Assembly: GCA_947457715.1 (NCBI GenBank)
Contig: CANGXK010000025.1
Span: forward strand, 1-14,773
Reading direction: 5' to 3'
Source of the DNA: Gemmatimonadota bacterium
GTDB taxonomy: Bacteria > Gemmatimonadota > Gemmatimonadetes > Gemmatimonadales > Gemmatimonadaceae
DNA: 14,773 bases
A program made the translations under genes and the position numbers. Positions 390 through 13,837 of the stretch are shown piece by piece; position 1 is the first letter of the stretch, and the number at the start of each line of letters is the position of its first letter. The notes under the pieces were generated by a model, which was not told the DNA's origin, ran no database searches, and saw only the letters and a program-made list of their open reading frames with translations.

Positions 390-1364
390 ATGGCTGCCTC
401 CGATCCCCTGCACGAGCGTCGACGCGTCGCGTCGCCCCCTCCCACTGACCCGCAGACCCGTGCCGAGGCCCTCTCGGTGGCGGCTCGGGCGCTGCGTGCG
501 GCGGAACATGTCTGTGTGCTGTCTGGTGCCGGCGTCTCGGCGGAAAGCGGCATTCCGACGTTCCGCGATGCGCAAACCGGGCTCTGGGCCAAGTTCTCGC
601 CGCAGGAGCTGGCCACGCCCGACGCCTTCGCGGCACACCCGAACCGGGTCTGGCAGTGGTACGCCGCCCGTCGCGCCATGGTGCGGGCCGCGCTGCCCAA
701 TCCGGCGCATCAGGCGCTGGTCACGCTGGCCTCGCGGGTGGCGCACTGCACGCTGGTGACCCAGAACGTGGACGACCTGCATGAGCGGGCCGGTTCACGT
801 GACGTGATCGGATTGCATGGGTCGCTGATGCGCGCGCGATGCAGCGCTGGTTGCCCAGGCACGATGGTGCCCACGGACGCACAGGCCGCCGAGCCGCCGC
901 GGTGCCCCGGCTGCGGCGCGCTCATGCGCCCCGACGTGGTGTGGTTCGGTGAGCGGATGCCGATGGCGGAGTTCGAGGCGGCCCGCCATGCCGCCGTGGC
1001 GTGCGACGTCTTCCTGTCGGTGGGCACCTCGAACGTGGTGGAGCCGGCGGCCTCGCTGCCCTGGATCTCGGCGACGCATGGGGCCACGGTGATCGTGGTC
1101 AACGCCAGCATGGAGGGCCAGCGCCGCGGTCCGAGCATTCTGCCCATTGAAGGGCCAGCTGGCGTTATGCTGCCGCGGCTGATGGCGGAAGCCTTCGCCG
1201 GTCGTCGCGTGCGTCGCCACGAGTCGGTGGCCCCGCCGTTTCGCGAGAGTGCCGCACCGCAGGCGACGGTGGCCGAGCTCCCGACCGATGCGCCGTCGAG
1301 GGAGCTGTCGTCAATTGACGTGCTGTCGCCGAATCCGTCAGCGGGACATCAGGCGTCCGAGTAG
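390..1364 (+). CDS. cobB: Sirtuin (Sir2 family) NAD-dependent protein deacylase, CobB/SIRT5-like
   Basis: A 324-residue cytoplasmic enzyme that removes acyl groups from lysine using NAD+, yielding nicotinamide and O-acyl-ADP-ribose. The sirtuin core spans about residues 28-265. It shows GAGVSAESGIPTFRD (46-60) for NAD binding, QNVDDLHERAG (125-135) and the catalytic His143 in LHG. Four zinc Cys are present (151, 155, 172, 175), followed by the MRPDVVWFGE strand. Tyr91 and Arg94 (YxxR) match the class III pair that binds succinyl or malonyl lysine in CobB and SIRT5, so desuccinylase activity is likely besides deacetylation. About 28 residues precede the core, and the last 55 or so are Ser/Pro/Ala-rich and probably disordered. 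ATG 390 is the first start after an in-frame stop at 372 and has no Shine-Dalgarno. The 3' end overlaps the convergent histidine kinase gene by 16 bp. Confidence 0.93.
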   Translation: MAASDPLHERRRVASPPPTDPQTRAEALSVAARALRAAEHVCVLSGAGVSAESGIPTFRDAQTGLWAKFSPQELATPDAFAAHPNRVWQWYAARRAMVRAALPNPAHQALVTLASRVAHCTLVTQNVDDLHERAGSRDVIGLHGSLMRARCSAGCPGTMVPTDAQAAEPPRCPGCGALMRPDVVWFGERMPMAEFEAARHAAVACDVFLSVGTSNVVEPAASLPWISATHGATVIVVNASMEGQRRGPSILPIEGPAGVMLPRLMAEAFAGRRVRRHESVAPPFRESAAPQATVAELPTDAPSRELSSIDVLSPNPSAGHQASE

Positions 1365-2767
1365 TCCTCGGCCGCGCGGACGAGAGGAATCCAAGCCGAG
1401 ATCGTGGTCCCGACACCGGGCAGCGACTCGGCCTGCACCTTGCCGCCGTGTGACTCGGCCAAGTGCCGGACGATGGCTAACCCCAGCCCCGTGCCGCCGG
1501 CCTCGCGTGACCGGCCCGGGTCGGCGCGATAGAAACGCTCGAAGATCCGGGGCAGGTGCTCCGCGCCGATGCCGGAGCCGGTGTCGCGCACGCCGATACG
1601 TACGCCATCATCCTGGTGCTGCGAGAAGAGCACGACTTCGCCGGCGGTCGTGTGACGCAACGCATTCTCGGCCAGGTTACTCAGAATCTGCCGTGCCGCG
1701 GTGGGGTCGACGTACAGGTGCTCCGCTCCGGCGCTGATCTCGGTGCGAAGCGCCACCCCCTTGGCTGCGGCCGCGGGTTGCAGCGGCGCGAAGACTTCGG
1801 CTGCGATGGAGGCGACATCGAGGTCGACGGGGTTGGGTACCCACCCACCGGATTCGATGCGCGACAAGTCGAGCAAGTCGTCGACGATGCGTTGCATGCG
1901 GCGCACATTGCCCTCGGCCATCGCGAGGAACTGCCGGCGGAGCTCGGGCGGAAGGTCTTCGTCCTGCAGTGTTTCCACGAAGCCGCTGATGACCGTGAGC
2001 GGCGTGCGCAGTTCATGTGACACGTTCGCCACGAAATCCCGTCGGACGGCCTCGAGGCGGCGAACGGGCGTGAGGTCGTAGAGCGCGAGCACCGCGCCGC
2101 CACCCGGCAGCGGACGCGCGGTGAGCGATAGCGTCCGATCGTCGACGCGCACTTCGTCGGGGATGGCATCGGCACCGGAAAGTACGGCTGCCAGCGCCTC
2201 GCGCAGGGTGCGATCGCGCGGCAGGAAGTCGGCCGGGAAGGGCACGGGTTCGCGCAGCCGGAGCAACTGGCGCGCGGTCCCGTTAATCCGGACTACGCGC
2301 TGACGCGCATCGACGGCGATCACGCCTTCGTTGAGCGACTCGGTGAGCGCGACCAACAGCGCCTCTTCACCCTGCAGTGCCTGCAGGCGCGCCTCGAGTT
2401 GCTCGGCCAGCCGCCGCAACGCTTCGGCGAGGTCGCCGACTTCACCACCGGCGATCGCGCGCGACGGTCGTTGGGTGAGGTCGCCCGCGGCGAGGCCACG
2501 GGCCACGTCGCGGAGCGCTTCGATAGGGCGCGCCACGGGTGCGGCGAGTACTTGCGCGAGGGCCACGCCGACCAGGAGCGCGGCGAGTCCGGCGATCACG
2601 ATGTCGCGGCGCACCTTGGCGAGAAAGTCATCGGCCGAGGCGGCGGCCGTCGGTTCTTCGGCGCGGACGCGTTCCGTGACACGGCGCTCCACGGCGAACA
2701 GCACAATGCCGACCAGCAGCGTCGCGACGACGAAGCTGTTGACGACGATACGCTGGGCGAGCCTCAT
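1349..2767 (-). CDS. phoR: Sensor histidine kinase, PhoR-like
   Basis: A 472-residue inner-membrane kinase that autophosphorylates on His and passes phosphate to the response regulator encoded directly upstream. Two membrane segments (about 7-26 and 56-76) bracket a loop of only about 30 residues, so there is no real periplasmic sensor domain. A HAMP-type segment (76-130) and a PAS-like domain (about 138-235, with LNEGVIAVD) follow. The HisKA helix has FVANVSHELRTPL with phospho-acceptor His251. The ATPase domain has the N box SNLAENALRH (363-372), the G1 box DTGSGIG (395-401) and the G2 box GGTGLGL (424-430). HAMP-PAS-HisKA with almost no periplasmic part is the PhoR layout, where phosphate status is read through the Pst transporter and PhoU. 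The partner regulator supports this, but a kinase for another envelope signal cannot be excluded. It is the last gene of the udk-phoB-phoR run. Confidence 0.88.
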   Translation of the reverse strand: MRLAQRIVVNSFVVATLLVGIVLFAVERRVTERVRAEEPTAAASADDFLAKVRRDIVIAGLAALLVGVALAQVLAAPVARPIEALRDVARGLAAGDLTQRPSRAIAGGEVGDLAEALRRLAEQLEARLQALQGEEALLVALTESLNEGVIAVDARQRVVRINGTARQLLRLREPVPFPADFLPRDRTLREALAAVLSGADAIPDEVRVDDRTLSLTARPLPGGGAVLALYDLTPVRRLEAVRRDFVANVSHELRTPLTVISGFVETLQDEDLPPELRRQFLAMAEGNVRRMQRIVDDLLDLSRIESGGWVPNPVDLDVASIAAEVFAPLQPAAAAKGVALRTEISAGAEHLYVDPTAARQILSNLAENALRHTTAGEVVLFSQHQDDGVRIGVRDTGSGIGAEHLPRIFERFYRADPGRSREAGGTGLGLAIVRHLAESHGGKVQAESLPGVGTTISAWIPLVRAAEDYSDA

Positions 2768-2785
2768 GCCCTGCTCACGATGCGC

Positions 2786-2805
2786 TCACGCGGAGCCGCG
2801 CGTGA
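2786..2805 (-). repeat. Perfect 7-bp inverted repeat in the phoB-phoR gap
   Basis: The arms TCACGCG (2786-2792) and CGCGTGA (2799-2805) are perfectly complementary around a 6-nt loop. The hairpin sits immediately after the phoB stop codon (2806-2808) and 18 nt before the phoR ATG at 2767. No U-run follows, so it is not an intrinsic terminator. In mRNA it could act as a processing or attenuation element setting the regulator to kinase ratio. High GC raises the odds of such a repeat arising by chance. Confidence 0.4.
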
Positions 2806-3522
2806 TCATCCGCTGCGCGGCATGGCCGCGCGGAAGCGATAGCCGAAGCCGCGCACGGTTTCGATCATATCACCGGCCGCGCCGAGTTTGGTGCGCAGCC
2901 GCTGCACGTGCATGTCGACGGTGCGCGTCTGAATGTCGGGGGCGGCATCCCACACCGTTTCCAGCAGCAGGCCGCGCCCCTGCACGCGTCCGCGCCGTTC
3001 CACAAGGGTCAGGAGCAGCTTGAACTCCGTGGGGGTGAGTTCGACTTCCTGTCCATCGACTTTGACCGCCATCGCGGCGCGGTCGATGTGCAGCGGACCG
3101 ATCACCAGGGTGTCGGCATTGACCGGGGCGGTGTTGCCGGTACGCCGCAGGATCGCGCCGACGCGCAGCACGAGTTCGGCCGGGCTGAATGGCTTGGTGA
3201 GGTAGTCGTCCGCACCGAGCGAAAGCCCGCGTATGCGGTCGGGTTCTTCGCGGCGGGCGGTGAGCATCAGGACCGCGATGTCCCGCGTGGTCTCGTCGGA
3301 GCGGAGTTGCTCGAGCACGTCGAAGCCTGAGATGCCGGGCAGCATCAAGTCGAGCACGATCAGCGAGGGTCGCTCGCGGCGGGCGTGATCGAGCGCCTCC
3401 TGGCCGGTGGCGGCGGTCGCCACACGGTACCCGACCTTTGCGAGATGATAGGTGACGAGCGCCACGATTTCCGGCTCGTCATCGACCACGAGAATACGTT
3501 CAGTGGACGGCGCAGCTTGCAT
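2806..3522 (-). CDS. phoB: Response regulator, OmpR/PhoB family
   Basis: A 238-residue cytoplasmic transcription factor. The receiver domain (about 8-125) has the acidic pair Asp14/Asp15, phospho-acceptor Asp58 in IVLDLMLPG, Thr88 and Lys110 (the TKPF motif). The C-terminal winged-helix domain (about 137-233) has VELTPTEFKLL, the recognition-helix region RTVDMHVQRLR and the terminal wing VRGFGYRF. These are typical of PhoB-like OmpR-class regulators that bind direct repeats upstream of target genes. The gene starts 12 bp after the uridine kinase stop and is followed after 38 bp by the PhoR-like kinase, so the three genes are probably co-transcribed. PhoB is the best label because of the PhoR-like partner; a PhoP-type name is possible. 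No clear Shine-Dalgarno is seen before the ATG. Confidence 0.87.
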   Translation of the reverse strand: MQAAPSTERILVVDDEPEIVALVTYHLAKVGYRVATAATGQEALDHARRERPSLIVLDLMLPGISGFDVLEQLRSDETTRDIAVLMLTARREEPDRIRGLSLGADDYLTKPFSPAELVLRVGAILRRTGNTAPVNADTLVIGPLHIDRAAMAVKVDGQEVELTPTEFKLLLTLVERRGRVQGRGLLLETVWDAAPDIQTRTVDMHVQRLRTKLGAAGDMIETVRGFGYRFRAAMPRSG

Positions 3523-3534
3523 GCAGGGATTGAC

Positions 3535-4203
3535 TCAGGCCGGGTCGGCCGTTGCGGGCACGGACAAAGGGGGGCGCGCCGCTGCGCGCGAGATGAGCCG
3601 ACGCTGGATTTTGGCGACGATCATTTCGATGGCGACCAGATTACTGCCTCCTCTCGGGACGATCACGTCAGCGTAGCGTTTGCTGGGCTCGACGAACTGC
3701 AGGTGCATCGGTTGTACGGTGTTCAGGTATTGATCGAGCACCGATTCGAGCGTCCGGCCGCGCACCGCCGTATCGCGGCGGATGCGGCGGATGAGCCGGA
3801 TGTCCGGATCGGCGTCGACAAACACTTTCACATCGCACAGCGCGCGGACGTTGGCATCAGCCAGCAGCAGAATGCCGTCGATGACGACGACGTCAGCTGG
3901 CGCGATACGTCGCGTCCGTTCACTCCGGGAATGGGTCGCGAATTCGTAGACGGGCATGTCCACCGGCTCGCCACGCGAGAGCGCGTCAAGGTGCGCGGTG
4001 AGCAATTCCACGTCGAAGGCATCGGGATGATCCCAGTTCACGTGATGTAGCTGCGACAGCGTGAGGTGCCGGAAGTCGCGATAGTACGCATCCATCTCGA
4101 GAAAGGCGACCGAAGCGTCGGGCAGTGCTTCGGCGACCTTGCGCGCGACCGTGGACTTCCCTGAGCCGGTGCCGCCTGCGATCCCGATGATCAGCGGTTT
4201 CAT
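3535..4203 (-). CDS. udk: Uridine kinase (uridine/cytidine salvage)
   Basis: A 222-residue cytoplasmic kinase that phosphorylates uridine and cytidine to UMP and CMP using ATP or GTP. The start was set at the ATG at 4203 (MKPLIIGIAGG) because the P-loop domain begins at once and this length fits the family (about 205-230). An upstream in-frame ATG at 4377 would only add about 58 low-complexity residues. Visible motifs are the Walker A loop GGTGSGKST (10-18) with Lys16, the catalytic MDAYY (Asp38), NWDHPDAFD (57-65), the VVVIDGILLL strand (106-115) and the basic lid region RRIRRDTAVRGR (139-150). The last 20 residues are a nonconserved Pro/Ala tail. It is the first gene of the run into the PhoB/PhoR-like pair and is divergent from the nucleotidase operon. 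Phosphoribulokinase-like P-loop proteins resemble it, but the motif set favours Udk. Confidence 0.9.
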   Translation of the reverse strand: MKPLIIGIAGGTGSGKSTVARKVAEALPDASVAFLEMDAYYRDFRHLTLSQLHHVNWDHPDAFDVELLTAHLDALSRGEPVDMPVYEFATHSRSERTRRIAPADVVVIDGILLLADANVRALCDVKVFVDADPDIRLIRRIRRDTAVRGRTLESVLDQYLNTVQPMHLQFVEPSKRYADVIVPRGGSNLVAIEMIVAKIQRRLISRAAARPPLSVPATADPA

Positions 4204-4407
4204 AAGCGGATGTTCCGGTTCCGACACTGCACGAGTACCAACCTGTCCCCTGGTCATGTCCGGACCGCCACGACGGTGTAACGAATGCGTATCGGCGGCC
4301 GGAACCGATATGGGCAAGTTCGTCGGGGCCGAGAGGAGGGGCAAGCGGCGTCGCGCCGGTACGGGCGCCCCCTCCAAGCCGGTGCTCGCTGCCGCTAGCT
4401 TTGCACC
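4204..4407. other. Divergent intergenic control region between udk and the nucleotidase operon
   Basis: This 204-bp gap must hold the promoters for both the udk-phoB-phoR run and the nucleotide salvage operon. On the plus strand, a -10-like TAGCTT lies at 4396-4401. A strong purine run, GAGAGGAGGGG (4331-4341), looks like a Shine-Dalgarno but has no start codon at a suitable distance. TGTCC occurs twice (4244 and 4257), 13 bp apart, which does not fit the 11-bp spacing of a Pho box. I see no convincing -35 on either strand and no riboswitch-like fold. Confidence 0.5.
4396..4401 (+). promoter_or_regulatory. Possible -10 hexamer giving a leaderless nucleotidase transcript
   Basis: TAGCTT ends 6 nt before the ATG at 4408, the usual distance from a -10 element to the transcription start, so the mRNA could begin at or next to the A of the ATG. 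The hexamer includes an in-frame TAG at 4396-4398, so translation cannot start further upstream. No Shine-Dalgarno is present. The -35 position is not recognisable. Confidence 0.35.
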
Positions 4408-7400
4408 ATGGGACGATCGTTATTGCTTTTGCCTGTGGCCATGCTCACGCTGGCCACCGCTGCTTTGCCCGCGCAGTCCGGCCGGTTCGATCTGGTCATT
4501 GCGGCGACCACCGACGTTCACGGGCGCCTGCGTGGCTGGGACTACTACGCCAACACCCCCGACCTGGCGCGTTCGTTGGCGGGGGCCGCCACCATCGTGG
4601 ATTCGGTGCGCACGGCGAACCCGGGCCGTGTGCTGCTGGTCGAGGGTGGCGACATCCTGTCGGGCAATCCGTTGCTGTATGTGGCCGCCAAGGTGGCGCC
4701 GCCGCCGGTCCATCCGGTGGTCGCTGCGATGAATGTGATGCGTTACGACGCGGCGGTGCTGGGCAATCACGAATTCAATTTTGGCGTGCCGCTGCTGCGT
4801 GCGGCCATAGCCCAGGCGGCATTCCCCTTCCTGGCGGCCAACGTGCGCGACACGCAGGGACGCCCGTTCGTGGCGCCGTACACGCTGATCGATCGTCGGG
4901 GCGTGCGCATCGCGATCATCGGCGGAACGACGCCGGGCTCGATGCTGTGGGACCGCGACCATCTGCGCGAGGCAGGTCTCACGGTGACCGATATCGTGTC
5001 GTCGGTGCGCGGTGCGGTGGCCGAGGTGCGCAAGCGCAAAGCCGATGTGGTGGTCGTGCTGCTGCACTCGGGGCTGGACGGTGCGGCCACGTACGATACC
5101 GTCGCGACGGGGCTTCCCTCCGAGAACGTGGCGGCGCGGGTGCCGCGCGAAATCGACGGCATCAATCTTGTCGTGTACGGCCATTCGCACGCCGAATTGG
5201 TGGACTCGACGATCAACGGCGCGCTCCTGGTGCAGCCGCGCAACTGGGCGGCGTCGGTGGCCGTGGCGACGCTGACGCTCGAGAAATCGAAGGGGAAGTG
5301 GTCGGTGGTGCAGCACCGTGGTCAATCGGTGCGCGTGGCCGGTCACGCCGAGTCCCCCGCGGTGCTGGCGGCGTCGGCGGCGACGCACAAGGCGACGGTG
5401 GCCTGGGTGACCACGCCGGTGGGACGTACCGCGGTCACGTGGCGGGCCGACAGTTCCCGCGTGGTGGACGCACCGATCACCGACCTGATCAACGAAGTGA
5501 TGCGGCGCGAATCGGGGGCCGATCTGGCCGCCACGGCGGCGTTTTCGCTCGACGCCACGCTCGACGCGGGCGCGGTGACGCAGGCCGCGCTGTCCAGACT
5601 GTATCCGTATGAGAATACGCTGCGCGCCGTCCGCATTTCCGGTGCGCAGCTGCGCGCATTCCTCGAGCAGTCGTCGCTGTACTATCGCACGCTCTCGTCC
5701 GATGGCTCGGCGCCGTCGGGCGGTTTGATCGACCCCACGATTCCCGGTTACAACTTCGACGTCGTGTCGGGCGTCGATTACGTCATCGATGTGTCCAAGC
5801 CTGCGGGTGCGCGCATCACGTCGCTCACGCGGAATGGACGCGCCGTGCAGTCCACCGATATGTTCACCATGGCGCTCAACAACTATCGGCAGAGCGGTGG
5901 CGGCGGCTACGCCATGCTGACCAGCGCGCCGGTGGTGTTCCAGAAGGACGTCGATATCCGTTCACTGATCATCGACGACGTGGCCAGGGCGGGGAGCCTC
6001 GATCCGGCCAAGTACGCGACGGTGAACTGGCGCCTGGAGCCGGCGGCGGCACGTGCGATCGCGTATCGCGAGCAGAATCGCGGCCGGGCCGGTGAAGCGG
6101 CCGGCGGCGCGCCGGCGCCCGCTGCGCCGGTGCCCGTTGCGCCGGTGCCCGTTGCGCCGGTGCCCGTTGCGCCGGTGCCCGCTGCTGCGGCTTCTCCTGC
6201 GCCGCAGGGGCGTACGCTGCGGGTGATCACCATGAGTGATTTTCACGGTGCGCTGTCGAACCGGCCCGACGAGCGCGGGCGCACACAGGGCGGCGCCGTG
6301 GCACTCTCGGCGGCGATCGAGAAAGCGCAGCGCGAATGCACCGGGCAGTGCCAGAGCGTGGTGGTCGATGCCGGCGACCTGTTCTCCGGCGCACCGGCGT
6401 CCGACTGGGACGCGGGCAAACCCACGGTGGCGGTGTTCAACCGGCTCCACGTGGCGGCCGGAGCGATCGGCAATCATGAGTTCGATTTCGGACAGGACAC
6501 GCTCCGTATGCGCTTGAAAGAGCTCAAGTACGCGGTCCTGGGCGCCAACGTGCGCGGCGCCGATGGCCGCCCGTTGCCGTGGATGCGGGCCGACACCGTG
6601 GTCGTGCGCGGTGGCGTGCGGATCGGGATCATCGGCACGGCCGGCGAGCACACGGCCACGTCCACCAAAGTGCGCAACGTGCGCCAGCTCAAATTTCTCG
6701 ATCCCGCCCCGATCATCAGCGATCGCGTGCGCGCGCTTCGTGCCGGCGGAGCGCAGGTCGTGATCGCGCTGGCCCACGACGGAGCCCGCTGTGACCGAGA
6801 CAAGCCCGAGGTCTGTTCGGGCGGCGGTCTCGACATCGTCGAGAAGCTGACCGACAAGCCTGATGTGTTCGTGATGGGGCACGCGCACACGAACATCGTG
6901 CTGCGTCGTCGCGGTATGCCGGTGGTGCAGACGTCCTCGAACGGCCGCGCCCTCGCGGTGGTCGACGTGCCGCTGAATGGCGGTGTCGCGCGCGCCGAGA
7001 TCCGCCACGTGTACGGCGAGGATCGGGCCGGTGCCGATCCGGTCGTCGATTCCATCGTGACGGCGGCTACGCGCAAGGTGCAGGTCCGCATGGATCGGCC
7101 GGTCGCTACCCTCGGCGAGGCCTTCCTGCGCCGCGGCAATCAGCATGCGCTGGGCAATCTGGTGGCCGACGCCGCGCGGGTGCAGGGCAATGCGGACTTC
7201 GGCGCGTGGAACAGTGGTGGCATTCGTACCGATCTCGCCGCCGGACCGATCACCTACGGCGATGTGCACGGTGTCTCGCCGTTCGGGAATGTGTTGGTAC
7301 GCATCCGGCTGCGTGGCCGGGACGTGCCCCTCGCGGCGGAGCGCTGGGTGTGGAACGGGCGCGCGAATTCGCACGTCAGTGGGCTCACCATCGAGTACGA

Positions 7401-7668
7401 TCCCGCCAAGCCACAAGGCCAGCGCGTGGTGCGTGTGCTCGGTGTCAACGGCGCGCCGCTCGATCCCGACCGGGTTTACTCGATGGCCATCAACGACTTC
7501 ATGGTCGACGATCCTGAAGGGGCGTCGCTGGCGCGCACGATTTCCGTCGAAATCCTCACGGTGCGCGACATCGACATGCTGGCGAGTTACCTCCAGGGAC
7601 TGCCGCAGCCGGTGCGCGGCGACGCGACCGAACGTATTCGCGCCGTTGGCGCAGGAGCATCAAAATGA
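4408..7668 (+). CDS. Secreted bimodular nucleotidase: CpdB-like cyclic phosphodiesterase/3'-nucleotidase fused to a 5'-nucleotidase
   Basis: A 1086-residue extracytoplasmic enzyme. A Sec signal peptide (about 1-22, cleavage near LPA-QS) precedes two complete metallophosphatase plus C-terminal nucleotidase modules. Module 1 has TTDVHG (Asp36, His38), GGD (Asp82), GNHE (Asn120, His121), His220 and GHSH (259-261). Its substrate domain carries YPYENT (399-404), PGYNFD and NNYR, which are CpdB hallmarks, and the DYYANTP stretch after the first metal motif also matches CpdB. Module 2 has SDFHG (Asp611, His613), AGD (Asp657), GNHE (688-691), His790, GHAH (824-827), NSGGIRTD (935-942) and SPFGN, as in UshA/NT5E. 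A Pro/Val/Ala linker (about 555-600) joins them. All four Cys (644, 648, 795, 803) are in module 2 and could form periplasmic disulfides. The architecture is that of Bacillus YfkN, but no cell-wall sorting signal is seen. First gene of a coupled operon. Confidence 0.9.
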   Translation: MGRSLLLLPVAMLTLATAALPAQSGRFDLVIAATTDVHGRLRGWDYYANTPDLARSLAGAATIVDSVRTANPGRVLLVEGGDILSGNPLLYVAAKVAPPPVHPVVAAMNVMRYDAAVLGNHEFNFGVPLLRAAIAQAAFPFLAANVRDTQGRPFVAPYTLIDRRGVRIAIIGGTTPGSMLWDRDHLREAGLTVTDIVSSVRGAVAEVRKRKADVVVVLLHSGLDGAATYDTVATGLPSENVAARVPREIDGINLVVYGHSHAELVDSTINGALLVQPRNWAASVAVATLTLEKSKGKWSVVQHRGQSVRVAGHAESPAVLAASAATHKATVAWVTTPVGRTAVTWRADSSRVVDAPITDLINEVMRRESGADLAATAAFSLDATLDAGAVTQAALSRLYPYENTLRAVRISGAQLRAFLEQSSLYYRTLSSDGSAPSGGLIDPTIPGYNFDVVSGVDYVIDVSKPAGARITSLTRNGRAVQSTDMFTMALNNYRQSGGGGYAMLTSAPVVFQKDVDIRSLIIDDVARAGSLDPAKYATVNWRLEPAAARAIAYREQNRGRAGEAAGGAPAPAAPVPVAPVPVAPVPVAPVPAAAASPAPQGRTLRVITMSDFHGALSNRPDERGRTQGGAVALSAAIEKAQRECTGQCQSVVVDAGDLFSGAPASDWDAGKPTVAVFNRLHVAAGAIGNHEFDFGQDTLRMRLKELKYAVLGANVRGADGRPLPWMRADTVVVRGGVRIGIIGTAGEHTATSTKVRNVRQLKFLDPAPIISDRVRALRAGGAQVVIALAHDGARCDRDKPEVCSGGGLDIVEKLTDKPDVFVMGHAHTNIVLRRRGMPVVQTSSNGRALAVVDVPLNGGVARAEIRHVYGEDRAGADPVVDSIVTAATRKVQVRMDRPVATLGEAFLRRGNQHALGNLVADAARVQGNADFGAWNSGGIRTDLAAGPITYGDVHGVSPFGNVLVRIRLRGRDVPLAAERWVWNGRANSHVSGLTIEYDPAKPQGQRVVRVLGVNGAPLDPDRVYSMAINDFMVDDPEGASLARTISVEILTVRDIDMLASYLQGLPQPVRGDATERIRAVGAGASK
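6121..6180 (+). repeat. Four tandem 15-bp repeats encoding the (V/A)APVP linker
   Basis: Four head-to-tail 15-bp units occur. The last three are identical (GTTGCGCCGGTGCCC) and the first differs at one base (GCTG for GTTG). They encode a repeating V/A-A-P-V-P pentapeptide between the two nucleotidase modules, flanked by degenerate Ala/Pro sequence on both sides. The unit is a multiple of 3, so slippage would change linker length without breaking the frame. Confidence 0.93.
7653..7657 (+). promoter_or_regulatory. Ribosome binding site for the 95-residue protein
   Basis: AGGAG sits 7 nt before the ATG at 7665, inside the end of the nucleotidase gene. It is one of the few clear Shine-Dalgarno sequences in the window and strongly supports that the small downstream reading frame is real and translated. 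Confidence 0.75.
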
Positions 7669-7952
7669 GTGATGTCGTTTCCACGACGACTGGTCCAGAC
7701 GCCCTTCGGGTGTACGTGAACGAACGCGGCGTCTCGGTGCCACATGGCTCGGTCGCGGTCGATGCCGTGCGGGCGCTGTTTCCTGAGTTGGCCGCCGAGG
7801 TCGAAGCGGGTCGGCAGCGTCTGACGGACAGCCGCGGACTCCCTGTCGACGCGCAGCAGGCGCTGGTGGGTGGCTCGATTTATCGGGTGGTGGCGGTGCG
7901 CGATCGCATCGATGCCGCCGTCGAGCCGAGTGACGCCGAGGGCGCCTCATGA
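7665..7952 (+). CDS. Uncharacterised 95-residue protein, possible beta-grasp (ThiS/MoaD/TGS-like) fold
   Basis: I do not recognise a named family. The start is supported by AGGAG seven nt upstream and by an ATGA overlap with the nucleotidase stop; its own stop overlaps the next ATG in the same way. After a Ser/Thr-rich lead (1-12) comes LRVYVNERGVSVPHGS, a strand-turn-strand pattern. A helix-like stretch AVDAVRALFPELAAEVEAG (31-49), then RLTDSRGLPVD (52-62) and a last strand SIYRVVAVR (71-79) follow. Strand-hairpin, helix, then late strand with conserved-looking Gly turns is the order of ubiquitin-like beta-grasp proteins such as ThiS, MoaD and TGS domains. The end (EPSDAEGAS) lacks the C-terminal Gly-Gly of sulfur carriers. 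No signal peptide or Cys is present, so it is presumably cytoplasmic. Its place between a nucleotidase and adenosine deaminase suggests a role in purine handling, but no function can be assigned. Confidence 0.75.
   Translation: MSDVVSTTTGPDALRVYVNERGVSVPHGSVAVDAVRALFPELAAEVEAGRQRLTDSRGLPVDAQQALVGGSIYRVVAVRDRIDAAVEPSDAEGAS
7938..7942 (+). promoter_or_regulatory. Ribosome binding site for adenosine deaminase
   Basis: GAGGG lies 6 nt before the ATG at 7949, within the end of the preceding small gene. It fixes the adenosine deaminase start at the ATGA overlap. Confidence 0.6.
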
Positions 7953-9019
7953 GCACGGTGAATCCCGTATTCGTCGACGTCGTGCAGCGCATGCCGAAGG
8001 CCGATCTGCATTGCCATCTCGATGGATCGCTGCGGCCGTCCACGCTGCTCGAATTGTCGGTCGAGCGGGGCCTCACGCTGCCGGTCGCCACCGCGCCGGC
8101 CCTCGGCGACTGGATGCGCGTCGATGACGCTCGCAATCTCGAAGACTACCTGGCGCGCTTCGCGGTGACCCTCGCCGCGATGCAGGACACCGTGGCGCTC
8201 GAGCGCATTGCGCATGAATTCGTGCTCGATGCCGCACGCGATGGCGTGCGGTATATCGAGGCCCGCTTCTGTCCGGCGCTCCACGTGCGTGGTGGCCTGT
8301 CACTCGACGACGTCATGCAGGCCGTCATGCGCGGTCTGGTGCGCGGTGAAAAGGAAACCGGCACGCTGGCGCGCGTTATCGTGTGCGCGCTGCGTAGTGT
8401 CCCGTGGCCGCACGCGCTTGCAATGGCGGAGCTGGCAGTGGCGCACAAGGGCAAGGGCGTCGTGGCGTTCGATCTGGCCGGTGGCGAGTTGGGTCATCCC
8501 GCGTCGGATCATGCGCTGGCGTTCGACTACGCGCGGCAGCACGATCTCGCGGTCACGGTGCACGCGGGTGAAGGTGATGGCCCATCCAGCATTCGCGACG
8601 CGATACACCGCTGCGGCGCCAATCGTATCGGACATGGCACCCGCCTGCGCGAAGACCCGTCGCTCGAAGCGTACGTGATCGATCACCGGATCACGCTCGA
8701 AGTGTGTCCCACCAGCAACGTGCAGACGCGGGTAGTGCCGAGCTTCGCCGAGCATCCGCTGGCGCGCTACGCGGTGATGGGGGCGGTGGTCACCATCAAC
8801 ACCGACAACCGTCTCATGAGCGGTGTCTCTCTCTCCGACGAGTATGTACGCTGCGCCCAGCATCTGCACTTCGATATCGACACGCTGGCGATGCTGGCGA
8901 TCACGTCGTTTGATTCGTCGTTCCTGCCGCACGTGGAGCGCGAGGCCCTGCGCGAAACGATCGCGATCGAGATCGGCAACCTGCTGGCCGAGGCCGAAGA
9001 CATTGCGGTGATGCTATGA
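7949..9019 (+). CDS. add: Adenosine deaminase
   Basis: A 356-residue cytoplasmic zinc hydrolase converting adenosine (and deoxyadenosine) to inosine plus ammonia. It is a TIM-barrel amidohydrolase of normal family length. Visible motifs are the metal-binding PKADLHCHLDGSLRP (16-30; His21, His23), YIEARFCP, VAFDLAGGE and VTVHAGEGDG with metal ligand His205 and catalytic Glu208. IGHGTRL with catalytic His229, LEVCPTSN and VTINTDNRLMSG with metal ligand Asp286 follow. The second Asp of the animal TDDP motif is Asn287 here, a variation I recall from other bacterial members, so it is not taken as inactivating. Aminofutalosine or adenine deaminases share the fold; the motif set and the purine phosphorylase next door favour adenosine. 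Both ends overlap neighbours by ATGA, so translation is coupled. Confidence 0.92.
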   Translation: MSTVNPVFVDVVQRMPKADLHCHLDGSLRPSTLLELSVERGLTLPVATAPALGDWMRVDDARNLEDYLARFAVTLAAMQDTVALERIAHEFVLDAARDGVRYIEARFCPALHVRGGLSLDDVMQAVMRGLVRGEKETGTLARVIVCALRSVPWPHALAMAELAVAHKGKGVVAFDLAGGELGHPASDHALAFDYARQHDLAVTVHAGEGDGPSSIRDAIHRCGANRIGHGTRLREDPSLEAYVIDHRITLEVCPTSNVQTRVVPSFAEHPLARYAVMGAVVTINTDNRLMSGVSLSDEYVRCAQHLHFDIDTLAMLAITSFDSSFLPHVEREALRETIAIEIGNLLAEAEDIAVML

Positions 9020-9891
9020 GCGAGCGTGCGTTCGAGCGCCCGTCGTTCGAGTCGCGGCCGATGGCTCCCGGCGCCGCGGCGGCGCAAGTGGCGGCGGATG
9101 ACATCCGGCAGCGTCTCGGTCCCGACGCGCCGACGCCGGTGTGTGGCATCGTGCTCGGCTCCGGTCTTGGCGGGCTGGCCGATCGCATCGAACGCGCGGT
9201 GCGCATTCCCTTTTCGCACGTACCGGGATTCCCGACAGCTACCGTTGCCGGCCACTCCGGGCAGCTGGTCATCGGCCTGCTCGGCGGTCGACCGGTGGTC
9301 GCGCTGGCCGGCCGGTTCCATATGTACGAGGGGCACGAGGCGGCGCTGGCCGCCTTCCCGGTGCGGGTCATGCACGCGCTCGGTGTACCGGTGTATTTCG
9401 CGTCGAATGCGGCGGGCGGGGTGCGACGCACATTCAATCCCGGTGATCTGATGGTGATTGCCGATCACATGAATCTGATGTTCCGCAATCCGCTGTTCGG
9501 GGCGGTCGAGCCGGGTGATGAACGCTTCCCCGACATGTCCGATCCGTACGATCCGACGTTGCGCGCGCTGCTGCATGAAGCGGGACGAACCACGGGCGTC
9601 GCGCTGCAGGACGGCGTGTACTGCGGGCTGCTCGGCCCCACCTATGAAACGCCGGCCGAAGTGCGCATGCTCGAGCGGCTCGGCGTCGACGCGGTCGGCA
9701 TGTCAACCGTGCCCGAAGTCATTGTGGCCCGGGCGCTCGGCATGCGCGTCGCGGCCGTATCGTGCATTACCAACAAGGCGGCTGGCCTCTCCCCCCACAA
9801 GCTCAATCACGCCGAGGTGATGGACGCGGGGCGCGCCGTCGCCAGCCAGTTCGAAGCGCTCGTTACGGAGTTCGTAGGCCGGCTGCCTTAA
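9016..9891 (+). CDS. punA: Purine nucleoside phosphorylase, trimeric (inosine/guanosine) class
   Basis: A 291-residue cytoplasmic enzyme that splits inosine or guanosine with phosphate into the base plus ribose-1-phosphate. Motifs of the trimeric, mammalian-like class are clear: the phosphate loop VLGSGLGG (47-53; Ser49), GHSG (His80), GRFHMYEGH (99-107) and SNAAGG (130-135). YETPAE with Glu211 holds the purine, VGMSTVPEV has Met229, and ITN with Asn253 plus LNHAEV with His265 follow. The Glu/Asn pair selects 6-oxopurines, so adenosine would first need the deaminase encoded just upstream. About 18 residues precede the conserved core; ATG 9016 is kept because it overlaps the add stop as ATGA. 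An alternative in-frame ATG lies at 9061. It is the last gene of the operon and is convergent with the M48 protease gene across 28 bp with no visible terminator. Confidence 0.93.
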   Translation: MSERAFERPSFESRPMAPGAAAAQVAADDIRQRLGPDAPTPVCGIVLGSGLGGLADRIERAVRIPFSHVPGFPTATVAGHSGQLVIGLLGGRPVVALAGRFHMYEGHEAALAAFPVRVMHALGVPVYFASNAAGGVRRTFNPGDLMVIADHMNLMFRNPLFGAVEPGDERFPDMSDPYDPTLRALLHEAGRTTGVALQDGVYCGLLGPTYETPAEVRMLERLGVDAVGMSTVPEVIVARALGMRVAAVSCITNKAAGLSPHKLNHAEVMDAGRAVASQFEALVTEFVGRLP

Positions 9892-12520: not shown

Positions 12521-13837
12521 ATGCGAGTTCCTCTCTCCGCTTCGACCCTTCGCGGTGCGCTGCTGCTGGGCGCCTGTGCTTCGTCCATCACGATTGCCGC
12601 CTGTGGAGAGAAGACGCAGGCTGGGGAAGGTCCGTACGCGGAGCTGGTCGATGAGTTCGTGCCGAAGATCGAGAAGGCAACGGGGCTGACCTTCAAGACG
12701 CCGCCGAAGGTCGAGTCCCGCACGCGTGACGAGGTGGGCACGTTCGTGCGCCGGCAGCTCGAGAGCGAGCGTGCGCGCACGCAGCTGGCGGGGCAGGAAT
12801 CGGCCTACAAGCTTCTCGGCCTCGTGCCCGACACCATGAATCTCATGGCGTTGCTGCAGAAGCTGCTGGAAGAGCAGATCGTGGGCTACTACGATCCGGC
12901 CACCAAGGTGCTTTACGTGGTCGAGGGGGCGCCGTCGGTGCTGCTGCGGCAGACGGTGTCGCATGAATTGGTGCACGCACTGCAGGATCAGTATGTGAAC
13001 ATCGATTCCGTGCAGGCGCAGGTGGACAACGCCGACCGTCAGTCGGCGGCGCAGGCCGTTCTGGAAGGACAAGCGGTGCTGCTGCAGCTGCGCTTGGATC
13101 CGAACGCGGGCCCGATGCTCAAGATGCCCGGAGGCTGGGACCGCATTCGCGACGCGATGAAAGACGCGCAGACGGGTATGCCGGTGTTCTCCTCGGCGCC
13201 CCGCACCGTGCGCGAAGGGTTGCTCTTCCCGTATCTGGGTGGCGCTGACTTCGTGCGCCGCTTCATCGAAAAGCGCCCGGAAAAAGAGCTGCTGGCCGAT
13301 CTGCCCATCTCCACGAAGCAGATTCTGAATGATGCGGCCTACTTCACCGAGACCACGGCGGCGCGCGACCTGCCTGTAGCCGTCACCCTGCCGGCGCCGC
13401 GCACCGGTACCGTGGTGTTCACGAACAGCTTCGGTGAGTTCGAGACGCGCCTCACGTTGGTGCAGCACCTGAAGGACGAAGCCCTGGCCCGTCGCGGCGC
13501 CAGTGGTGTGGACGGCGACAAGTTCGCGGTCGTCCGCACGCCAGATGGCGATGCTCTCGTGTGGGTCTCGGCGTGGGACTCCGCCGTCGACGCTGCCGAC
13601 TTCCTCGATCTCATGGGCGATGCGGCGCGTCGTCGGTACGAACTGGCCCGCCAGGAGTTCCCGGGCGGTGCGACCTCACGGCAGTACGACATCCCGGCCA
13701 AGGGGACGCGTGGCGCACGGACGGTCACGCTCCGCGTGGAACAGGTGAGCGGCCAGCCCGTAGTGATCTACATGGATACGCCTGCCAAGATCGGCGCCAC
13801 GCTGATCGACCTGACCGGCATCACCGTCGCCCGTTAA
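12521..13837 (+). CDS. Predicted metalloprotease-like lipoprotein with HExxH motif, function unknown
   Basis: A 438-residue protein not recognised as a named family. The start is the ATG at 12521, 11 bp after the prepilin peptidase stop. It opens a lipoprotein signal (MRVPLSASTLRGALLLG) with the lipobox IAAC and Cys28, so the protein is probably anchored in the envelope. Earlier in-frame starts would run into the preceding gene. A central segment reads IVGYYDPATKVLYVV, then TVSHELVHALQDQ with His148, Glu149 and His152. Thirty residues later comes LEGQA with Glu182, giving the HExxH plus downstream Glu spacing of gluzincin metallopeptidases. The remaining 250 residues (about 190-438) show no known motif and include several beta-rich stretches. 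Peptidase activity is inferred from the motif only; no substrate can be proposed. The next gene starts 4 bp after its stop. Confidence 0.8.
   Translation: MRVPLSASTLRGALLLGACASSITIAACGEKTQAGEGPYAELVDEFVPKIEKATGLTFKTPPKVESRTRDEVGTFVRRQLESERARTQLAGQESAYKLLGLVPDTMNLMALLQKLLEEQIVGYYDPATKVLYVVEGAPSVLLRQTVSHELVHALQDQYVNIDSVQAQVDNADRQSAAQAVLEGQAVLLQLRLDPNAGPMLKMPGGWDRIRDAMKDAQTGMPVFSSAPRTVREGLLFPYLGGADFVRRFIEKRPEKELLADLPISTKQILNDAAYFTETTAARDLPVAVTLPAPRTGTVVFTNSFGEFETRLTLVQHLKDEALARRGASGVDGDKFAVVRTPDGDALVWVSAWDSAVDAADFLDLMGDAARRRYELARQEFPGGATSRQYDIPAKGTRGARTVTLRVEQVSGQPVVIYMDTPAKIGATLIDLTGITVAR

Follow-up and report, generated by a model that had tools for sequence, protein, structure and literature searches.

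The stretch of Gemmatimonadota DNA analysed here, 14,773 nucleotides long and referred to below as the window, carries an ordinary nucleotide-scavenging operon in which, on the best reading of the evidence, one of four genes encodes a new and uncharacterised partner domain of adenosine deaminase (ADA). The product of this gene is a protein of 95 amino acids, predicted by structure modelling to be a beta-grasp domain, which is an ADA-linked member of the operon and whose family keeps company with ADA throughout the phylum sample. The point that deserves attention is this large and undescribed family of small proteins, rather than the operon itself.

Gene content and junctions of the operon

The features of the window that concern the operon, with their coordinates, strand and basis, are:

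1349..3522, - strand: kinase resembling PhoR/PnpS and regulator resembling PhoB, both conserved nearby (best matches, below curated cut-offs)
3535..4260, - strand: uridine kinase (udk), divergently encoded next to the operon, with its start codon at 4203 or 4260 (TIGR00235 above cut-off)
4290..4310, no strand assigned: conserved inverted repeat ATCGG..CCGAT between udk and the nucleotidase gene, a candidate operator (pattern search)
4396..4401, + strand: TAGCTT, a -10 element of the leaderless type lying 6 bases upstream of the nucleotidase ATG, candidate promoter for all four genes (sequence)
4408..7668, + strand: putatively secreted two-module nucleotidase, 1086 aa, YfkN architecture (Pfam, NCBIfam and PDB sequence matches; leader peptide by eye)
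7665..7952, + strand: 95-aa predicted beta-grasp protein, ADA-linked (structure model, fold searches, family, association, fusions)
7949..9019, + strand: adenosine deaminase (TIGR01430 above cut-off, PF00962, metal-site motifs; closest solved relative 6n91)
9016..9891, + strand: purine nucleoside phosphorylase (PNP), inosine/guanosine type (TIGR01700 above cut-off)

The genes for the nucleotidase, the 95-aa protein, ADA and PNP follow one another on the + strand, and each shares an ATGA with the next (7665-7668, 7949-7952 and 9016-9019), exactly where an earlier reading of the sequence without database searches (the sequence-only reading) had placed the junctions of a four-gene operon. Since 4-base overlaps between genes are frequent across bacteria, the weight of those in this operon rests on their conservation in relatives, most of which do keep them. 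The comparison covers 178 representative loci, chosen by small-gene or ADA matches, to which all fetched regions, 26 loci from a contig scan and the window were reduced. Where both genes of a pair were available, the sequence allows a 4-base overlap at 91 of 107 junctions between nucleotidase and small gene, at 74 of 121 between small gene and ADA, and at 81 of 97 between ADA and PNP. The other 47 small-gene/ADA junctions consist of five 1-base overlaps, 21 overlaps of 8, 14 or 17 bases, 19 gaps of 0-9 bases, one gap of 51 bases and one junction at which no start codon was found.

The same reading held that the order of the enzymes mirrors their pathway. The order does follow the breakdown of purine nucleotides; however, a gene for a CNT nucleoside transporter lies inside the unit in 43 of the 178 related stretches (counted, like PNP, within the reach of the fetched stretches, which often stop some 2.5 kb beyond the small gene), and the gene order is thus not always a bare series of enzymes. 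Many of these CNT-containing operons share the order of nucleotidase, small gene and ADA with the window, whose own unit, unlike theirs, holds no importer. Rfam gave no gathering-level match to an RNA element in the sequence under study, nor was a tRNA present, and, judged by their titles, papers on bacterial operons with ADA, PNP and a nucleotidase include none about the present operon. Further downstream, four related loci (L015, L019, L020 and L025) have about 1-2.8 kb more DNA than the window between PNP and an M48 peptidase gene, and positions 12521-13837 of the window encode a protein that matches the Hvo_1808 surface protein family below its cut-off (99 vs 200 bits).

The nucleotidase combines two Metallophos and two 5_nucleotid_C stretches (Pfam) in one chain of 1086 residues, and its modules are joined by a Pro/Ala/Val linker encoded by five copies of a 15-base tandem repeat at 6109-6185. 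In sequence searches of the PDB, the N-terminal half matched 3qfk/4q7f of the 5'-nucleotidase family, followed by Bacillus subtilis YfkN (3gve) and the CpdB-type entries 3jyf and 5eqv, while the best matches of the C-terminal half were the nucleotidase 3ivd and the 5'-nucleotidase 2z1a. The N-terminal half thus resembles CpdB/YfkN 2',3'-cyclic-nucleotide 2'-phosphodiesterases/3'-nucleotidases, and the first enzyme of the unit may well be more than a 5'-nucleotidase. In an alignment of 110 relatives, the metal-site motifs of the C-terminal half are mostly retained, and the window protein is altered in the loop that provides CD73-type enzymes with their second base-stacking residue. Like B. subtilis YfkN, a member of the multifunctional PRK09419 group, the window protein unites two nucleotidase modules in a single, putatively secreted chain; although this is the best NCBIfam group for the window nucleotidase, the match lies far below the cut-off (448 vs 1646 bits). 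A hydrophobic leader, recognised by eye, opens the chain, which would accordingly be exported. No LPXTG-type anchor was seen by eye at its C-terminus; a sorting motif is ascribed to YfkN in the abstract of PMC3222306. At some related loci the nucleotidase is missing (L016, L020, L023) or missing or reduced to one module (L008, L026, L019), and there the small gene and ADA are still paired.

The two remaining enzymes both score above curated NCBIfam cut-offs. ADA matches A_deaminase (PF00962, E 1e-97) and exceeds the TIGR01430 cut-off for bacterial adenosine deaminases (305 vs 217 bits), with whose members it shares the metal-site motifs; among 177 aligned ADA sequences, HxH, HAGE, GH and TD occur in the window protein and in the commonest variants, of which at most six were listed. 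These variants do not differ between ADA sequences that have the small gene and those that lack it, which gives no support to the idea that the small protein compensates for a change in the ADA active site. Exactly one ADA match per genome was found in all 11 genomes searched. PNP matches PNP_UDP_1 (E 7e-54) and surpasses the cut-off of the inosine/guanosine-specific TIGR01700 (311 vs 293 bits). We also agree, by eye, that neither ADA nor PNP has a signal peptide.

The small protein and its association with adenosine deaminase

The 95-aa protein has no Pfam or NCBIfam match above cut-off. Its predicted fold is common to beta-grasp domains (ThiS/MoaD, ubiquitin-like and possibly TGS), and fold searches pointed to a resemblance to NEDD8, SUMO, SAMP1 and a molybdopterin synthase subunit. 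The TGS Pfam family is absent from the 12 families listed for 36 family members at E <= 10, a level at which the HMMER filters drop most weak matches. A 2Fe-2S ferredoxin-like domain was considered and set aside: weak Fer2_4 matches occur in 10 of 36 members, and just 10 of 124 unfused members contain any cysteine.

The family is large, with 2,130 database matches at E <= 0.01, and the organisms named among the best 120 of these, as among the best 120 of 239 matches in another search, are Gemmatimonas or Gemmatimonadales. The closest named protein among the matches listed comes from Gemmatimonas groenlandica (87% identity, 88% query coverage). The 26 contig-scan loci, which come from one scan of genome contigs with two short small-protein patterns, are titled Gemmatimonadetes, Gemmatimonadota, Gemmatimonadaceae, Gemmatimonas or Roseisolibacter, with the exception of L013 (titled Kuenenia); Gemmatimonadota is the phylum that was covered genome by genome. 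No plasmid relatives of the small protein were found, and against PHROGs the window's protein gave one weak match and that of L125 none. One database protein, P0084, joins a chaperonin-like N-terminus to the C-terminal part of the small protein and is probably an assembly chimera.

A profile search of a Gemmatimonadota sample detected the small protein in 123 of 249 genomes, the search having returned 124 at E <= 1e-3, from which G254, a match of 27 residues on a contig other than that of its ADA, was dropped. ADA is present in 187 of the same 249 genomes. In 104 of the 123 genomes ADA lies directly downstream of the small gene and in 16 both are in one open frame, which together accounts for 120; the other three, with no ADA in the fetched stretch, are G157 (at a contig edge), G206 and G233. 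ADA likewise follows the small gene in all 26 contig-scan loci. Across the 178 representative loci, the small gene lies directly upstream of ADA in 121, is fused to it in 19, and occurs without ADA in three, while 35 loci have ADA and no detected small gene; the second and last of these counts had been 18 and 36 before a re-trained profile added G129. The last group, for which regions were fetched from 39 of the 66 genomes that have ADA but gave no usable match to the small gene, indicates that ADA does not depend on the small protein everywhere.

The two proteins are also found fused. In L024 the small domain and ADA occupy one frame of 428 residues, and a database search with residues 1-80 of this protein retrieved five small-domain/ADA fusions, L024's included. 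On an ADA tree (FastTree, 177 sequences, some long branches), on which fusion and fission look alike, the fused label needs three changes, one each for a 16-member clade, a 5-member clade and G134, and the same number results from the starred branches alone. G129, a neighbour of G134 labelled as unfused on that tree, later proved to be fused when the re-trained profile was used. Proteins that become fused more than once are usually linked in function, and by this established reasoning the joining of the small domain to ADA in three places of the tree would argue for such a linkage. The modelled fusion has a weakly predicted linker (pLDDT 63 for residues 71-80) and a pTM of 0.82, which does not support fixed docking of the domain. 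To our knowledge, bacterial adenosine deaminase is usually taken as working alone, and the type found in the window, which pairs with or fuses to a beta-grasp domain, is in this respect unlike those of the papers searched. No such pairing is described in the titles and abstract openings of the literature on adenosine deaminase with beta-grasp, ubiquitin-like or Gemmatimonas, or of that on beta-grasp proteins and deaminases in prokaryotic operons.

Transcription, regulatory neighbours and nucleoside import

Six bases before the nucleotidase ATG, the window carries a TAGCTT element of the leaderless type. The pattern TANNNT occurs 5-7 bases before the start codon of the nucleotidase in 67 of 117 loci where it is the first gene, and before the small gene in five of the eight where that gene comes first. 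At inner genes it is found once each among 102 small genes that follow a nucleotidase, 121 ADA genes and 101 PNP genes. The nucleotidase has more candidate start codons per gene than the inner genes (mean 2.4 vs 1.4-1.8), which somewhat favours a match there, and 50 of the 117 nucleotidase starts have no such element. The distribution fits one leaderless polycistronic transcript. A literature search on leaderless transcription in Gemmatimonas found no paper.

The sequence-only reading called the operon self-contained, which is too strong, as many relatives also keep the uridine kinase gene and the PhoR/PhoB-like pair next to the operon, and the importer lies outside the unit. In 76 of 178 stretches udk precedes the unit in divergent orientation, and the inverted repeat ATCGG..CCGAT is present in 20 of these 76 udk-nucleotidase intergenic stretches, compared with a background of 0.02 per 200 bases. 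Judged from sequence patterns, the repeat at 4290-4310 is a better candidate for a control site than Pho-type repeats, and could be an operator shared by the divergent genes.

With respect to import, the same reading had noted that the window holds no importer, with which we agree, and that the lack of any nucleoside importer, together with no growth on nucleotides, would refute its proposal. A search for NupG, CNT and BMP types in 16 related genomes, which bears indirectly on the organism of the window, did find importers: NupG-type PF03825 in all 16, the BMP nucleoside-binding family PF02608 in 12 and CNT PF07662 in five, with Xan_ur_permease PF00860 in eight, six of them above cut-off. The importer missing from the window is therefore best explained as being encoded elsewhere.

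Proposed function and alternative explanations

Taken as a whole, we consider it probable that the four genes form a nucleotide-scavenging operon that is read as one transcript and includes a partner domain of ADA. In this chromosomal Gemmatimonadota operon, a promoter at the nucleotidase start would give rise to what is probably a single leaderless polycistronic mRNA, with translation coupled at every junction. The secreted YfkN-like enzyme, as its sequence relatives suggest, would convert 2',3'-cyclic, 3'- and 5'-nucleotides to nucleosides and phosphate outside the cytoplasm, and NupG-type or BMP/ABC importers, with genes elsewhere in the genome, would take up the nucleosides. ADA would then convert adenosine to inosine, and PNP would convert inosine to hypoxanthine and ribose-1-phosphate. 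The 95-aa beta-grasp protein would act as a partner domain for ADA. The overlapping start would keep the synthesis of the two in step, and the small protein, tethered to the N-terminal side of ADA or binding there, would most likely adjust the stability, assembly or location of the deaminase.

A different emphasis, in which the operon serves mainly to scavenge phosphate under PhoR/PhoB-type control and purine salvage is a by-product, appears rather unlikely to us. Enzymes of the nucleotidase family do release phosphate, and the best matches of the neighbour genes are PnpS/PhoR and PhoB, but these fall below the curated cut-offs (PhoB 240 vs 296, PnpS 293 vs 400 and PhoR 263 vs 334 bits), and eight simple patterns of Pho-box-like direct repeats occur in at most one of the 76 intergenic stretches, that of the window not being among them.

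For the small protein itself, adjacency to ADA might reflect no more than membership of the operon, the protein serving nucleoside uptake or the whole pathway, for instance by binding an importer or a nucleoside. The CNT genes found within related units agree with such a role, as do G206 (L171) and G233 (L163), two genomes without an ADA match in which the genes after the small gene encode a CNT transporter and PNP. However, CNT is absent from G083, G001 and G002, the closest relatives of the window, and the fusions are to ADA, none to other proteins having been seen in length-limited database searches; we hold a role in uptake to be unlikely. A sulfur carrier or ubiquitin-like modifier acting through its C-terminus is very improbable. 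The fold resemblances listed above would suit it, and so would weak ThiS matches among family members, a Gly-Gly among the final 20 residues in 46 of the 124 unfused members, and a Gly-Gly near the domain end in four of five fused database proteins (P0121, P0122, P0124 and P0125). Unlike sulfur-carrier beta-grasp domains, though, the family lacks a terminal Gly-Gly, which ends just one of the 124 unfused members, as well as a family match above cut-off. In the fusions the domain sits at the ADA N-terminus and has no free C-terminus, and no activating enzyme appears among the neighbour-gene families looked for, a set in which it was not specifically sought.

The partner-domain reading may extend beyond this operon. 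Tentatively, the family could be an undescribed Gemmatimonadota accessory domain that regulates or positions ADA, either in trans through coupled translation or in cis through fusion, which would have arisen in as many as three places, that serves a nucleoside transporter in genomes without ADA, and that might act as a general organiser of nucleoside salvage. A family of 'hypothetical proteins' with 2,130 database matches thereby gains a testable partner, ADA, and with the promoter pattern, leaderless operon starts can be predicted in a simple way for a phylum that has been little studied. The pairing of ADA with a dedicated small domain, either fused to it or made in translational step, suggests that purine salvage has a level of control or assembly not recognised so far.
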